This document shows positions 1 to 5,808 of a DNA stretch of 33,000 nt, one piece after another. Under the pieces are notes generated by a model. That model did no database searches. It was given only the letters and a program-made list of their open reading frames with translations, and was not told where the DNA came from. Numbering within the stretch: position 1 is the stretch's first letter; each line of letters opens with the position of its first letter. The DNA is taken from positions 1 to 33,000 of the forward strand of contig NZ_FQZP01000028.1 of NCBI RefSeq assembly GCF_900142095.1, given 5' to 3'. The translations under genes were made by a program, and so were the position numbers. Source of the stretch: Thermoclostridium caenicola (GTDB lineage Bacteria > Bacillota > Clostridia > DSM-8532).

Positions 1-90
1 CTTTTTCTTCCGGTGTAAAATTTCTTCTCTTTTCCATAGTTCCATACTAACTTATTTTGGCCGTTTTGTCTGTCTTAATTTCTGGTATCA
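1..90 (-). mobile_element. End of an IS3-like insertion sequence, with the start of transposase OrfA
   Basis: On the minus strand an ATG at 37-35 opens a frame reading MEKRRNFTPEEK before the window ends. This matches the usual start of IS3-family OrfA proteins, which are DNA-binding HTH subunits of the transposase. Only 12 codons are visible, so the family call rests on that short motif. The AT-rich DNA between the ATG and about position 90 would be the untranslated end of the element. A minus-strand TG at 90-89 is a plausible terminus, as IS3 elements usually start with TG, but I cannot confirm it without the other end. The element points away from the integrase and appears to have landed at or near the 5' end of that gene. 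Confidence 0.45.
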
Positions 91-96
91 TTATAA

Positions 97-192
97 AGAG
101 GGGAAAATTCATATCAGATAATCGTCTCCTGTGGCTACGATATAACCGGCAAAAAACTAACCAAGACCCAGACTATAAAGCGACCTCCAGGC
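97..192 (+). other. In-frame coding for the integrase arm-binding domain upstream of its first ATG
   Basis: The frame of the integrase stays open upstream of ATG 193, back to a TAA at 94-96. It encodes RGENSYQIIVSCGYD, then GKKLTKTQTIKRPPG, joined directly to MTDKQWEKEL. This is the classic N-terminal arm-type DNA-binding domain of ICE and phage tyrosine integrases, which normally begins a few residues earlier at an ATG. No ATG, GTG or TTG precedes it after the stop. The first handful of codons therefore seem lost, by IS insertion or by a nonsense mutation at 94. Either the gene is damaged, or it starts at 193 without its arm domain. Confidence 0.6.
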
Positions 193-1494
193 ATGACGGA
201 CAAGCAGTGGGAGAAAGAATTACGGAAGATAGCCCTGGAATTTGAACGGCAGGTTGAAACAGGACAGTGCCTGGACGGTTCAAAAATGACATTTGCAGAA
301 TTTGTTGAGAAGTGGATCAAGGATTATGCATCCTCAGAATTAGCACCAAAAACATTCCATCGGTATCAGCAATTGCTGTCAAGAATATTGCCAGCATTAG
401 GTCATATACGGCTTGATAAAATACAGCCAACTCATCTACTTGAATTTTATGCAAATCTTAAAGAGAGAGGGATCCGCGAAGATACAACCTATATCGCAAA
501 AGCTAACGAACTGCGAAAGGTTATCAAGGAGAAAGCAATCACAGATAAAGAATTAGCAGAAAAAGCTGACCTTCAAATCCGAACGGTCCGAAAAGTATTG
601 AATGGTAAATCAGTTAAGTATACAACCGCCGTTGCTATAAGCAACGTGTTAGAAGTGCCTATTGACAGTATATTTACAACTAGTGGTGAACCCGCTCCGC
701 TCTCAGATCAGACCATTAAACATCATCATAGGCTGATATCCTCTATTCTTCAAACTGCTGTTCATTGGCAGCTAATATTGAGCAATCCGGCAGCAAGAAT
801 TAAACCGCCAAAGGTAGAGAAAAAAGAGGCTCCCCATTACGATGAGGATACTGTGGAACTGGTACTGAATTTATTAGACAAAGAACCAATAAAGTACCGT
901 ACAATGATGTATTTGACCATTTTTAGTGGTGTACGCCTTGGGGAATTAGATGGTATTGATTGGCCTGATATCGATTTAGATAACAAACTATTAACTATCA
1001 ATAAGGCATCACAATATATTCCTGGCATTGGTACGTTTACAAAAAGCCCCAAAAATGAAAGTAGCATAAGAGTTATTGCATTGCCTGATATAGTAGTAGA
1101 TCAGGTTAAAGAATACAGAAAGTGGTGGAATGAACAGAAGCTCAAAGTTGGCGATTTATGGTATAAAGATAGCGATGGTCGTGAAAGCAACAGGGTATTT
1201 GTACAATGGAATGGAAAGCCTATTCATCCGTCAACGCCTTCAAAATGGTGGAAAAAGTTCAGAGAGAAGTATAATCTTCCTGAACTCACTTTCCATGGGC
1301 TCCGGCATACAAACGCCAGCCTACTGATAGCAGAAGGTGTGGATGTTCAGACAGTAGCCAAAAGGCTGGGCCATAGTAAAGCAACTACAACTACCAGTAT
1401 ATACTCACACTTCTTGAAAAAACCCGATAGGGAAGCAGCTGCAAAGCTCGAAAACTTGTTTAAAAAGAAAAAAGAGTTACCCAAGCAGGCATAA
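193..1494 (+). CDS. Tyrosine-type site-specific integrase with an embedded XRE-like HTH; 5' end probably damaged
   Basis: This is the recombinase of an integrative element, cutting and joining DNA through a tyrosine nucleophile. Numbering from ATG 193, residues 33-95 are a SAM-like core-binding segment. Residues about 99-165 are an inserted Cro/XRE-type helix-turn-helix (DKELAEKADLQIRTVRKVLN and the IDSIF ending). The catalytic domain follows, with R248, K284, H368, R371 and H394, and the nucleophile Y404 in TSIYSHF. All catalytic residues are present. The arm-binding domain lies upstream in the same frame but behind a stop, so the start at 193 is simply the first available ATG and may not be the ancestral one. 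The gene reads toward the tRNA-Trp fragment at 1646-1690, the expected place for an integrase. It is more AT-rich than the chromosome to its right. Whether it is still active is uncertain. Confidence 0.85.
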   Translation: MTDKQWEKELRKIALEFERQVETGQCLDGSKMTFAEFVEKWIKDYASSELAPKTFHRYQQLLSRILPALGHIRLDKIQPTHLLEFYANLKERGIREDTTYIAKANELRKVIKEKAITDKELAEKADLQIRTVRKVLNGKSVKYTTAVAISNVLEVPIDSIFTTSGEPAPLSDQTIKHHHRLISSILQTAVHWQLILSNPAARIKPPKVEKKEAPHYDEDTVELVLNLLDKEPIKYRTMMYLTIFSGVRLGELDGIDWPDIDLDNKLLTINKASQYIPGIGTFTKSPKNESSIRVIALPDIVVDQVKEYRKWWNEQKLKVGDLWYKDSDGRESNRVFVQWNGKPIHPSTPSKWWKKFREKYNLPELTFHGLRHTNASLLIAEGVDVQTVAKRLGHSKATTTTSIYSHFLKKPDREAAAKLENLFKKKKELPKQA

Positions 1495-1509
1495 GCGCCT
1501 GCTTTTTTT
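1483..1509 (+). terminator. Rho-independent terminator of the integrase
   Basis: AAGCAGGC (1483-1490) pairs perfectly with GCCTGCTT (1497-1504) around a six-base loop and runs into seven Ts ending at 1509. The stop codon TAA lies inside the loop region, so the terminator overlaps the end of the integrase gene. Confidence 0.85.
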
Positions 1510-1550
1510 GACTACTATTTGACTACTACAAGTACCGAATAGTAGTCAAA
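1507..1550. repeat. Direct and inverted repeats, probable integrase arm-binding sites
   Basis: TTTGACTACTATT (1507-1519) is followed by an overlapping direct copy TTTGACTACTAC (1518-1529) and a perfect inverted copy AATAGTAGTCAAA (1538-1550). A second looser pair, CTACAAAAAGTA (1572-1583) and CTACGAAAAGTA (1624-1635), lies closer to the tRNA fragment. Paired repeats between an integrase gene and the attachment core are where arm-type binding sites usually lie. The protein-binding role is inferred. Confidence 0.5.
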
Positions 1551-1645: not shown

Positions 1646-1690
1646 CTCCAAAACCGCGTGCCGCGGGTTCAAGTCCTGTCTCCCCTGCCA
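1646..1690 (+). other. Attachment-site core: 3' half of a tRNA-Trp(CCA) gene
   Basis: The segment runs from the anticodon loop CTCCAAA through ACCGC, a T-arm with GGTTCAAGTCC, the acceptor strand CTCCCCT, a G discriminator and encoded CCA. The anticodon would be CCA. Upstream DNA does not supply the matching acceptor strand AGGGGAG or anticodon strand GCGGT, so this is not a whole tRNA gene. A 3' tRNA fragment immediately downstream of an integrase is the hallmark of an att junction. The intact tRNA-Trp should sit at the other end of the element, beyond the left edge. Confidence 0.8.
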
Positions 1691-3312: not shown

Positions 3313-5808
3313 TTGGCGAGAAAGAAAAAAGGCAAGACAACTGAACCGGCGATCATCGAAACAGAGGAGAAGTCTTTTGCCGACGAGAGTACCGGCAATT
3401 TCGTCCGGGCTGACGACGCAGAACAGGAACAGCCATATCCGGTTTTTAAGGTCTCGGTTCGAAACCTGGTAGCTTTTTCAATCCCTGAAGACACCACCTG
3501 GTCTTTCACCTCCTACGCCCAGCTCCAGGAAGGTTCACAGGCCCATGCGGAAATCCAGAACCGCCACAAGGCCCTGGGCACCTACCGTCCGGAAGTCTAT
3601 CTCACCTATTCCTGCAGGACAAAAAACTGCATCGTGGAGATCAGCGGGCGGGCAGACGGTATCTGGGAACTGGAGAACGAGGCCATCATCCATGAGATCA
3701 AAACCACATCCACTCAACTTTCAGAGATACACGAAGACTTCAGCGAGGCCCACTGGGCCCAGGGCAAGTGCTATGCCTTCATCTATGCCGCCCACAAAAA
3801 CCTGCAAAGGATCACCGTACGCCTCACCTATCTCCATCGTGCCAGCGGGAAGGAAAAAAGCTTTGAGCGGACTTTCAGTCGGGATGCTCTTGAAAAATTC
3901 ATGAAGAGCCTGGTCCATCCTTTCGCGGGATGGGCCCTGTCCCAGGCCAAATGGCGCCAGGTGCGGGATCTGTCCATCCAGGCCCTGGAATTCCCCTATC
4001 CGGCCTACCGGACCGGTCAAAAGCTTCTGGCCTATAACACCTACAGATGTATCCAGGACGGCAAGCGGCTCTTTGCCCAGGCGCCTACCGGTACCGGCAA
4101 GACCATGGGCGTCCTTTATCCAGCCATCAAAGCCCTTGCCGAAGGCAGCATCCAGCGCATCTTTTATCTGACCGCCAAAACCACCACACAGCACGTTGCG
4201 GAAAACGCCCTGAAGCTTCTGGCGGACCAGGGCCTGCGCCTCAGGGTTTTGACTCTGACTGCCAAGGACAAGATCTGCCCCCATCTCATACGGGAATGCT
4301 ATTCCGAGAAATGCATCTATCTCCAGGGCTATGCCTCCCGTTCCAGGAAGGCGATAAAGGAACTCATCCGGAAGACGGATACCTACCACAGGGACAATAT
4401 CGCCGAGACAGCCATGAAACACACCCTGTGCCCATTTGAATTCAGCCTGGATCTGGCGCTCCAGTGCGATGTGATCATATGTGACTACAACTATGTATTC
4501 GATCCCAGGGTCAGCCTTAAGAGGTTCTTCCAGCAGAAATCCCGCGAAGACTGCGTACTTCTCATCGACGAAGCCCACAACCTGTTCGACCGCGCCCGCG
4601 AGATTTATTCAGCCTCCATCAGCAAAAAGGAAGTCCTGGAGATGGCCAGACGCATCAGGGAGGATCTGCCGGCTGTGGCCAAATCGCTCCGCGGCATCAG
4701 CCGAACCCTTGCTTCCCTGGAAAAGCAAACGGCACAGGACAGGAACGAGGCGGCAGGCGTAAGTTACCATGCCTCACCCGTCCTTCCGGATGCCCTTTTG
4801 GCTCCGGTTGAGGCTTTCATCAGCGAGACCGAGCTCTGGATGCTGACCCGCGGCGATGAGGAAAAGGAATATACCGAGGATTTGGTCACCCTATTTTTCG
4901 ACCTGCTGCATTTCAAGAACATAGCGGAGCTTTACTCCTCCGAATATCGTACGATGATAACCGGAACAGGAAGCCATCTCAGGCTGACCCTGCTGTGCCT
5001 GGATCCGGGCGGCATGCTGGACAAGATCATGGATACGGCCCGTTCAGCCATCCTTTTTTCGGCCACCCTTTCACCGCTGTCCTACTTCCGGGATATCCTG
5101 GGGGGACGCCGCGAGGATGCCACCCTCAGGCTGCCTTCGCCCTTTCCCCGGGAGAACCTGCTCGTGGTCAACGAAGACTGCGTGGAGACCCGTTTCCGGT
5201 ACAGGGAAAAATACCTGGAACGCGTCGCCCTCGCCATACATCAGTGGGTGAAATGCCGCACCGGCAACTATATGGTCTTTTTCCCCTCCTACCAGTACAT
5301 GACCGACGTTCTGGAGATTTTCAGGGAGCTTGGGGGTACTTTCAGAGTCCTTTGCCAGGAACGGGAAATGGATGAAGCTTCACGAAGCGCTTTTCTGAAA
5401 GAGTTTGACAATTTCGGAGACGTCACGCGGATTGGTTTTTGCGTCATGGGCGGAATCTTTGGCGAGGGTATTGATCTTGTGGGCGACCGGCTCACCGGCG
5501 TGGTCATCGTAGGCATCGGCTTGCCCCAAGTCTGCCCGGAACTGGAGATCATGCGCCGCTATTATGATGAAAAGCTGGGCAGCGGGTTCTCCTATGCCTA
5601 TACCTATCCCGGCATCAACCGTGTGCTCCAGGCCTCAGGGCGGCTGATACGGACGGAAAATGACCGGGGAGCTCTGCTGCTGATCGATTCCCGCTTCGCT
5701 CAGCCGGACTGCATCAGGCTCCTTCCAGATGAATGGTGCCCCATTCCCCGGACTTCCATGGGCGTCGACATTGAGGCATGCGTCAGGCAATTCTGGGAGA
5801 AGAGCTGA
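3313..5808 (+). CDS. PD-(D/E)XK nuclease-XPD/DinG-type ATP-dependent DNA helicase fusion
   Basis: An 831-residue DNA repair-type protein. Residues about 85-175 hold a RecB-like PD-(D/E)XK nuclease signature: D115 in GRADG, E128 and K130 in HEIK, then Q150 in WAQGKCYAF. The superfamily 2 helicase follows: a Q-like motif near YPAYRTGQ (229-236), Walker A APTGTGKT (257-264) and a DEAH box (419-422). Cysteines 322, 329, 334 and 373 are placed as in Fe-S XPD/Rad3 helicases. C-terminal motifs include FGEGIDLVGDRL and QASGRLIRT. The TTG start follows GAGAGGAAG by nine bases. The family is expected to unwind 5'-to-3' with an iron-sulfur cluster; nuclease activity is inferred from the motif only. It stands alone with its own promoter and converges on the next gene with 23 bases between stops. 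Substrate and pathway are not evident. Confidence 0.85.
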   Translation: MARKKKGKTTEPAIIETEEKSFADESTGNFVRADDAEQEQPYPVFKVSVRNLVAFSIPEDTTWSFTSYAQLQEGSQAHAEIQNRHKALGTYRPEVYLTYSCRTKNCIVEISGRADGIWELENEAIIHEIKTTSTQLSEIHEDFSEAHWAQGKCYAFIYAAHKNLQRITVRLTYLHRASGKEKSFERTFSRDALEKFMKSLVHPFAGWALSQAKWRQVRDLSIQALEFPYPAYRTGQKLLAYNTYRCIQDGKRLFAQAPTGTGKTMGVLYPAIKALAEGSIQRIFYLTAKTTTQHVAENALKLLADQGLRLRVLTLTAKDKICPHLIRECYSEKCIYLQGYASRSRKAIKELIRKTDTYHRDNIAETAMKHTLCPFEFSLDLALQCDVIICDYNYVFDPRVSLKRFFQQKSREDCVLLIDEAHNLFDRAREIYSASISKKEVLEMARRIREDLPAVAKSLRGISRTLASLEKQTAQDRNEAAGVSYHASPVLPDALLAPVEAFISETELWMLTRGDEEKEYTEDLVTLFFDLLHFKNIAELYSSEYRTMITGTGSHLRLTLLCLDPGGMLDKIMDTARSAILFSATLSPLSYFRDILGGRREDATLRLPSPFPRENLLVVNEDCVETRFRYREKYLERVALAIHQWVKCRTGNYMVFFPSYQYMTDVLEIFRELGGTFRVLCQEREMDEASRSAFLKEFDNFGDVTRIGFCVMGGIFGEGIDLVGDRLTGVVIVGIGLPQVCPELEIMRRYYDEKLGSGFSYAYTYPGINRVLQASGRLIRTENDRGALLLIDSRFAQPDCIRLLPDEWCPIPRTSMGVDIEACVRQFWEKS

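Follow-up and report, generated by a model that had tools for sequence, protein, structure and literature searches.

A Cro/C1-type helix-turn-helix domain inside the core-binding domain of a truncated Tn916-type integrase from Thermoclostridium caenicola

The integrase at the left end of a 33,000-nucleotide stretch of DNA from Thermoclostridium caenicola (the window, which is the entire contig C28 of this genome, G000) is a variant of a Tn916-type tyrosine integrase with a helix-turn-helix (HTH) domain inside its core-binding domain. The anatomy is settled with respect to the fold of the domain, its place, its recurrence in related integrases, the catalytic residues that are kept, the attR site behind the gene and the truncation of the window copy. 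We propose, judging the whole of this reading about evenly balanced between right and wrong, that the gene is the remnant of the integrase of a prophage-like element in a tRNA-Trp gene, and that the HTH would be an extra operator-type head regulating recombination or int expression.

The inserted domain and its place in the integrase

The ORF at 193-1494 encodes 433 amino acids; the frame is open from base 97, with ATG 193 as its earliest start codon. Residues are numbered here from base 97 (Table 1), except where counting from ATG 193 is indicated. In a Pfam search with the whole ORF the HTH is flanked by Phage_int_SAM_3 (33-89 from ATG 193) and Phage_integrase (217-407 from ATG 193), and is itself matched by HTH_26 (30.1 bits, cut-off 22; residues 107-162 from ATG 193) and HTH_3 (28.7 bits, cut-off 23; residues 107-158 from ATG 193). 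The excised insert by itself reaches 32.1 bits with HTH_3 (cut-off 23), and each of the two families is found in 21 of 27 aligned inserts at E <= 0.01. The AlphaFold model of the whole frame, built from 39 aligned sequences, has a mean pLDDT of 90.9 and a pTM of 0.75, and the model of the insert alone a pLDDT of 88.3. In the former the insert spans residues 131-195 and stands on stalk strands 131-134 and 193-195, with helices at 136-145, 150-156, 161-168, 175-185 and 189-192; the model and structure comparison both give the five-helix fold with the HTH in helices 2 and 3.

A sequence-only reading of this DNA had proposed a Cro/XRE-type HTH within a tyrosine integrase. Its presence is borne out by the two Pfam matches above cut-off and by the confidently modelled XRE fold, with Cro/C1 helices exactly at the claimed place; the coordinates proposed, 487-690, fit the modelled insert (bases 487-681) very well. 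The prediction gives a separate XRE-fold domain, and not a segment that folds merely as part of the core-binding domain. We therefore regard the insert as confirmed to be a genuine XRE-fold domain, beyond chance. Its model matches CylR2 (Z 9.7), P22 c2 with operator (Z 9.6), SinR with DNA (Z 9.2) and 434 Cro (Z 8.9). Ahead of all these come phosphonate dioxygenases, in which a similar domain is present (Z 10.1). Since an XRE-like domain thus also occurs inside enzymes, the fold alone is no proof of DNA binding. These enzymes (HEPD) were rejected as kin of the insert and are taken as a caution only.

The same reading had placed the HTH in the stretch that separates the core-binding from the catalytic domain. 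Alignment, Pfam and structure matches show instead that it interrupts the core-binding domain. In an alignment with 17 relatives the insert is located between 'HLLEFYANLKERGIRED' and 'LSDQTIKHHHRLISSILQTAVHW', both of which belong to the core-binding domain. Phage_int_SAM_3 covers residues 65-121 of the window frame, with model helices at 66-81, 84-101 and 111-121. The second half of Phage_int_SAM_5 is found behind the HTH in L026 (39.3 bits) and in L003 (21.4 bits, slightly below the cut-off of 22.3), and in the insert-less L004 Phage_int_M runs continuous and unbroken (24.5 bits, below the cut-off of 27). The core-binding domain of lambda Int (2oxo) aligns across the insert, over residues 64-233 of the model (92 residues, 1.6 A), as do the isolated core-binding domains 2kd1 (108 residues over 57-243) and 3lys (104 over 60-241). 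Because isolated core-binding structures align across the insert in this way, the HTH is an independent domain plugged between the third and fourth core-binding helices.

Around the insert the recombinase core is preserved. The catalytic-domain fold is present (Phage_integrase, 89 bits on the window ORF in Pfam), and the six catalytic residues listed in Table 1 are invariant in 39 aligned rows and are kept in every insert-bearing row that has a letter there. The best structural match of the rest of the integrase is the Int of Tn1549 (Z 24.8, 300 residues, 2.9 A). Strands 298-301, 304-308, 312-316 and 325-328 of the AlphaFold model are candidates for the beta-stranded insertion that the IntTn916 subgroup has between strands 2 and 3 of the catalytic domain.

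Table 1. Features at the left end of the window (residue numbers counted from base 97)
Feature	Position	Strand	Basis
End of IS3-type insertion sequence; its first ORF runs leftward, off the contig	1..95	-	Repeat copies; full copy in a relative
Integrase reading frame, 5'-truncated	97..1494	+	Translation; alignment to intact relatives
Arm-binding domain remnant, two strands and helix remaining	97..285	+	Model secondary structure, alignment
Core-binding domain, first part, three helices	286..459	+	Phage_int_SAM_3, model
Cro/C1-type HTH insert on two-strand stalk	487..681	+	Pfam, AlphaFold, structure matches
HTH third helix (161-168), recognition helix by position	577..600	+	AlphaFold model
Core-binding domain, second part, starting with the fourth helix	706..816	+	Helix 204-223; structure alignments
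Catalytic domain	844..1473	+	R280, K319, H400, R403, H426, Y436 kept
11-base repeats (candidate arm-type sites): direct 1507-1517 and 1518-1528, inverted 1540-1550	1507..1550	+	Read from sequence
attR: tRNA-Trp 3' half from the anticodon loop on	1646..1690	+	Intact tRNA-Trp in seven relatives

Distribution and evolution of the insert

The 110 loci with an integrase ORF of at least 150 aa (E <= 1e-20) are bimodal in the length of the segment at this place, which is 74-86 residues in 47 loci and 5-27 in 59; the remaining four comprise three loci without an aligned segment and one partial copy (39). Distinct sequences number 43 of the 47 with the insert and 57 of the 59 without. The architecture therefore recurs, with a long segment in 47 of 110 related loci, and is common among relatives; the sequence-only reading had named a lack of HTH similarity in all close integrases as a contrary outcome, and this did not occur. 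In the viral-scan loci (n=55) the insert is present in 30 and absent in 22, with three unclassified. Among the matches listed, with scoring limited to four candidates for each genome, a full-span match is found in at least 9 of 398 phylum genomes; the relatives search gives one in 4 of 99 genomes, the T. caenicola genome included. Phage records give 2171 matches, 34 of them with at least 80% coverage. Six phage records were examined: three unannotated metagenomic clones (L028, L029 and L030) carry the insert, and it is absent in a fourth clone (L032) and in the named phages L031 and L033. HTH_XRE matches are present mid-protein in some clostridial integrases in protein databases.

Two quick trees were used to follow the insert. 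One, of 90 rows (43 with and 47 without the insert, which was left out; 20 of the 110 rows were dropped as short, distant or duplicate), has 13 state changes, at least eight of them forced by well-supported branches. The other, of 79 rows after the removal of 11 long-branch rows (3 with and 8 without the insert), has ten, at least seven of them forced. Gains or losses of the insert, all at the same exact position, number at least seven, and this repetition implies that it is dispensable on evolutionary time. In the 90-row tree, for instance, L012 without the insert and L026 with it are sisters with full support. That the insert-bearing integrases form a single clade is rejected with the 79 rows (AU p 2e-149), and the 90-row tree does not unite them either.

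One old gain followed by several losses is possible, as are several gains. Distances between inserts correlate with those between catalytic domains with r 0.36 (37 of 40 inserts), a value reached in none of 2000 permutations; for core-binding and catalytic domains r is 0.72. In addition, 37 of 42 inserts are nearer to another insert than to any stand-alone XRE domain of these loci. The weak but clear correlation, together with the proximity of inserts to one another, makes an old module that was often lost, or was passed between integrases, more likely than many separate captures.

The HTH also diverges faster than the domains around it. Its mean pairwise difference over 37 rows is 0.76, compared with 0.56 for the core-binding, 0.59 for the catalytic and 0.54 for the arm domain, and in 11 of 13 close pairs it has the larger fraction of differences that change an amino acid. 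The dN/dS values of the HTH, computable for 10 pairs, are 0.02-0.41 and indicate purifying selection. The HTH is therefore a retained domain with a quickly changing surface. Conserved recognition-helix residues among homologues had been named beforehand as support for DNA binding, and the opposite is seen: across 40 inserts the scaffold positions T163, G170, A178, I181, L185 and F193 are conserved (3.0-4.2 bits), whereas the exposed third-helix positions 161, 162, 165, 166, 168 and 169 are among the most variable (0.7-1.4 bits). Position 161 is more hydrophobic in inserts than in stand-alone XRE domains, which is unusual for a position that reads bases and, with the high variability of the exposed recognition-helix positions, counts against a DNA-binding head. 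The net charge of 42 inserts is +2.8 versus +1.8 for 25 stand-alone XRE domains of the same loci (p 0.03, relatedness ignored).

The truncated gene and its tRNA-Trp site

The integrase had been read as otherwise intact around the HTH, but its 5' end is cut off by an insertion sequence. Bases 1-95 are present at seven places in G000, and among 12 copies examined in this genome and its relatives all ten that can be placed part from one another precisely behind base 95. In a relative (L042 1501-3095, G012) a complete copy encodes OrfA with HTH_Tnp_1 and OrfB with rve transposase domains, the ORF pair on which we take the element to belong to the IS3 family; the copy adjoins repeats that by eye resemble a CRISPR array. 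The element breaks the G000 assembly and, in the window, the integrase, from which it took away the start codon and the first residues. The opposite end of the element occurs in G000 at ten places, in two variants, and by eye none of them holds the missing front of int. The contig ends that the element terminates are seven, namely those of the window and of C20, C33, C49, C58, C69 and C85.

Intact relatives have a longer N-terminus, including a start codon, in alignment with the window integrase. The N-terminal arm domain of IntTn916 type (three strands and one helix) is incomplete here, two strands and the helix remaining in the frame. With this domain incomplete and the start codon lost, the window copy is what is left of an IntTn916 member, not an intact one. 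Within the family its nearest kin is L007 of G006, 70% identical over 317 residues and likewise interrupted by a stop; the insertion-sequence end, the lost start and this broken kin lead us to read the window gene as probably a remnant. It is extremely unlikely that the window copy still works as an integrase started at ATG 193: the frame is open from there and the catalytic residues are intact, but the arm-binding strands precede this codon in the AlphaFold model and the alignment, the insertion-sequence end occupies 1-95, window 1-400 contains no forward promoter-like match, and the 70% identical G006 copy is broken too. Decayed integrases of this kind seem common in the family. L007, L020 and L023 are broken or partial copies of the same kind of integrase in several family genomes.

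ARAGORN finds no tRNA in the window. The tRNA-Trp half motif, searched in 32 family genomes, occurs in eight, G000 and seven others; in each of the seven ARAGORN finds an intact tRNA-Trp at the motif, its corresponding half identical or almost identical to that of the window, where no intact gene is found. The DNA downstream is common to the window and three same-genus genomes of these, at 75-76% over 1.1-1.3 kb. The 5' half of the tRNA is replaced by element DNA in the window, so that 1646 marks attR, and the exchange point is in or beside the anticodon loop of tRNA-Trp. With the patterns used, G000 contains no second copy of the half apart from 1646-1690, and the intact tRNA-Trp gene is presumably hidden in a gap of the assembly, where the element has its far end. 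Farther downstream, behind attR, an 831-aa protein with DEAD_2 and Helicase_C_2 domains (DinG/Rad3-like) is encoded at 3313-5808.

The 11-base repeats between the integrase and attR may be arm-type sites, judging from their arrangement; the same layout with other letters is found in L122, which has the insert, and in L012, which lacks it. The insert-bearing L122, L125 and L126 likewise end beside a tRNA-Trp 3' half, as seen by eye. Tape-measure genes are located near L122 (G250) and L125 (G399), which makes at least these two elements prophages, and a DnaB-like helicase gene near L126 (G372). A small XRE-like gene with the start MISYKP is common to the prophages L158 (8221-8427) and L160 (3886-4098), both of which have HTH-bearing integrases.

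Possible roles of the HTH and known systems

We infer that the HTH binds DNA and that this binding has a regulatory use. The element, with its Tn916-type integrase, would have entered a tRNA-Trp gene and was probably a prophage. The HTH of intact relatives would most likely be an additional sequence-specific DNA-binding head, which may bind a site in the attachment or int-promoter region of the element and so regulate the recombination complex or int expression, and not the choice of chromosomal target. An insert that is dispensable, not tied to the target, basic and specificity-like in its evolution, in relatives whose catalysis is complete, is most simply accounted for by such a head, and a regulatory DNA-binding role is our best guess for the HTH. 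By eye, no operator for the HTH could be named in the int flanks of 36 loci (two of them without a downstream flank). A wider claim is doubtful at present: that in a broad class of phage integrases the core-binding domain bears a fast-evolving, exchangeable operator-reading head, with which the recombinase itself would sense or occupy the regulatory DNA of its element and, needing no separate factor, tie integration or excision to the control of genes.

The main rival to a DNA-binding head is an HTH that no longer binds DNA and instead touches another protein, be it the regulator of the element, a directionality factor or the protomer next to it, or else is a tolerated spacer, which we hold to be possible though somewhat unlikely. 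The variable and partly hydrophobic surface of the recognition helix would suit such a role, as would the standing of the insert as the fastest-diverging domain and the XRE-like folds inside HEPD and HppE; the purifying selection on the HTH, its kept scaffold residues and its basic charge argue against it. Nor is the similarity between insert and XRE protein higher within a locus (0.239, n=10) than between loci (0.227, n=1040). On the same identities, from 10 same-locus and 1040 other pairs, an operator common to the HTH and the element's own XRE protein finds no support.

It is less probable still that the HTH extends core-site recognition, reading DNA beside the core site and helping to pick the attachment site. 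The fourth core-binding helix would lie on DNA in this fold and the HTH is plugged in at its start, and insert-bearing integrases use several tRNA genes, as this reading would have it. However, tRNA genes are used by insert-less integrases as well. In particular, the insert-less L130 lies at a tRNA-Trp 3' half whose core agrees letter for letter with that of the window (by eye), and the insert-less L027 adjoins an intact tRNA-Trp. Since tRNA-Trp is used with and without the insert, the HTH is not needed for this target, and target choice by the HTH is disfavoured. That the integrase is its own repressor, with the HTH replacing the CI protein of the element, is very improbable: the insert is repressor-like in fold and the integrase-fold repressors YopR and SroF are among the structure matches, but the catalytic residues are kept, and in the prophage of G250, the element of the nearest intact relative, the reading frame of a CI-like HTH protein stops 8 bases short of int, with a small XRE gene in divergent orientation, so that the integrase HTH is not the sole repressor there. 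That this element has such a repressor of its own also counts against the regulatory head proposed above.

Tyrosine integrases normally depend on separate factors for their directionality and timing. With a regulator-like domain inside the domain that grips the DNA, the present family offers a natural experiment on the way in which control of integrases arises, and as tRNA-Trp is the target of members that have the HTH and of members that lack it, the role of this domain can be tested directly. The fold of the insert is like that of the Cro/C1 repressors P22 c2, SinR, CylR2 and 434 Cro (Z 8.9-9.7 over 59-65 residues); these are free dimers, whereas the insert is a domain of a recombinase and its DNA binding is putative. 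YopR and SroF are repressors with an integrase-like fold, and thus an integrase fold can serve regulation. Unlike these, the integrases described here show no signs of a loss of catalysis, with all six catalytic residues kept.

In the open-licence literature of PubMed Central we found no description of an HTH inserted in the core-binding domain. With the IntTn916 subgroup (the Int proteins of Tn916 and Tn1549) the family shares the arm-binding, core-binding and catalytic domains and the catalytic residues. According to the passages of PMC8138268 that deal with this subgroup, many of its members use tRNA genes; section 9 of that paper and the passages found in it do not mention an HTH in the core-binding domain, in which the present family differs. 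For the TnpA (Tn554) subgroup this paper describes an insertion as well, which consists of one alpha helix between the core-binding domain and the catalytic domain. Compared with that account of TnpA, the insertion in the integrases described here is a whole HTH domain, and it lies inside the core-binding domain.
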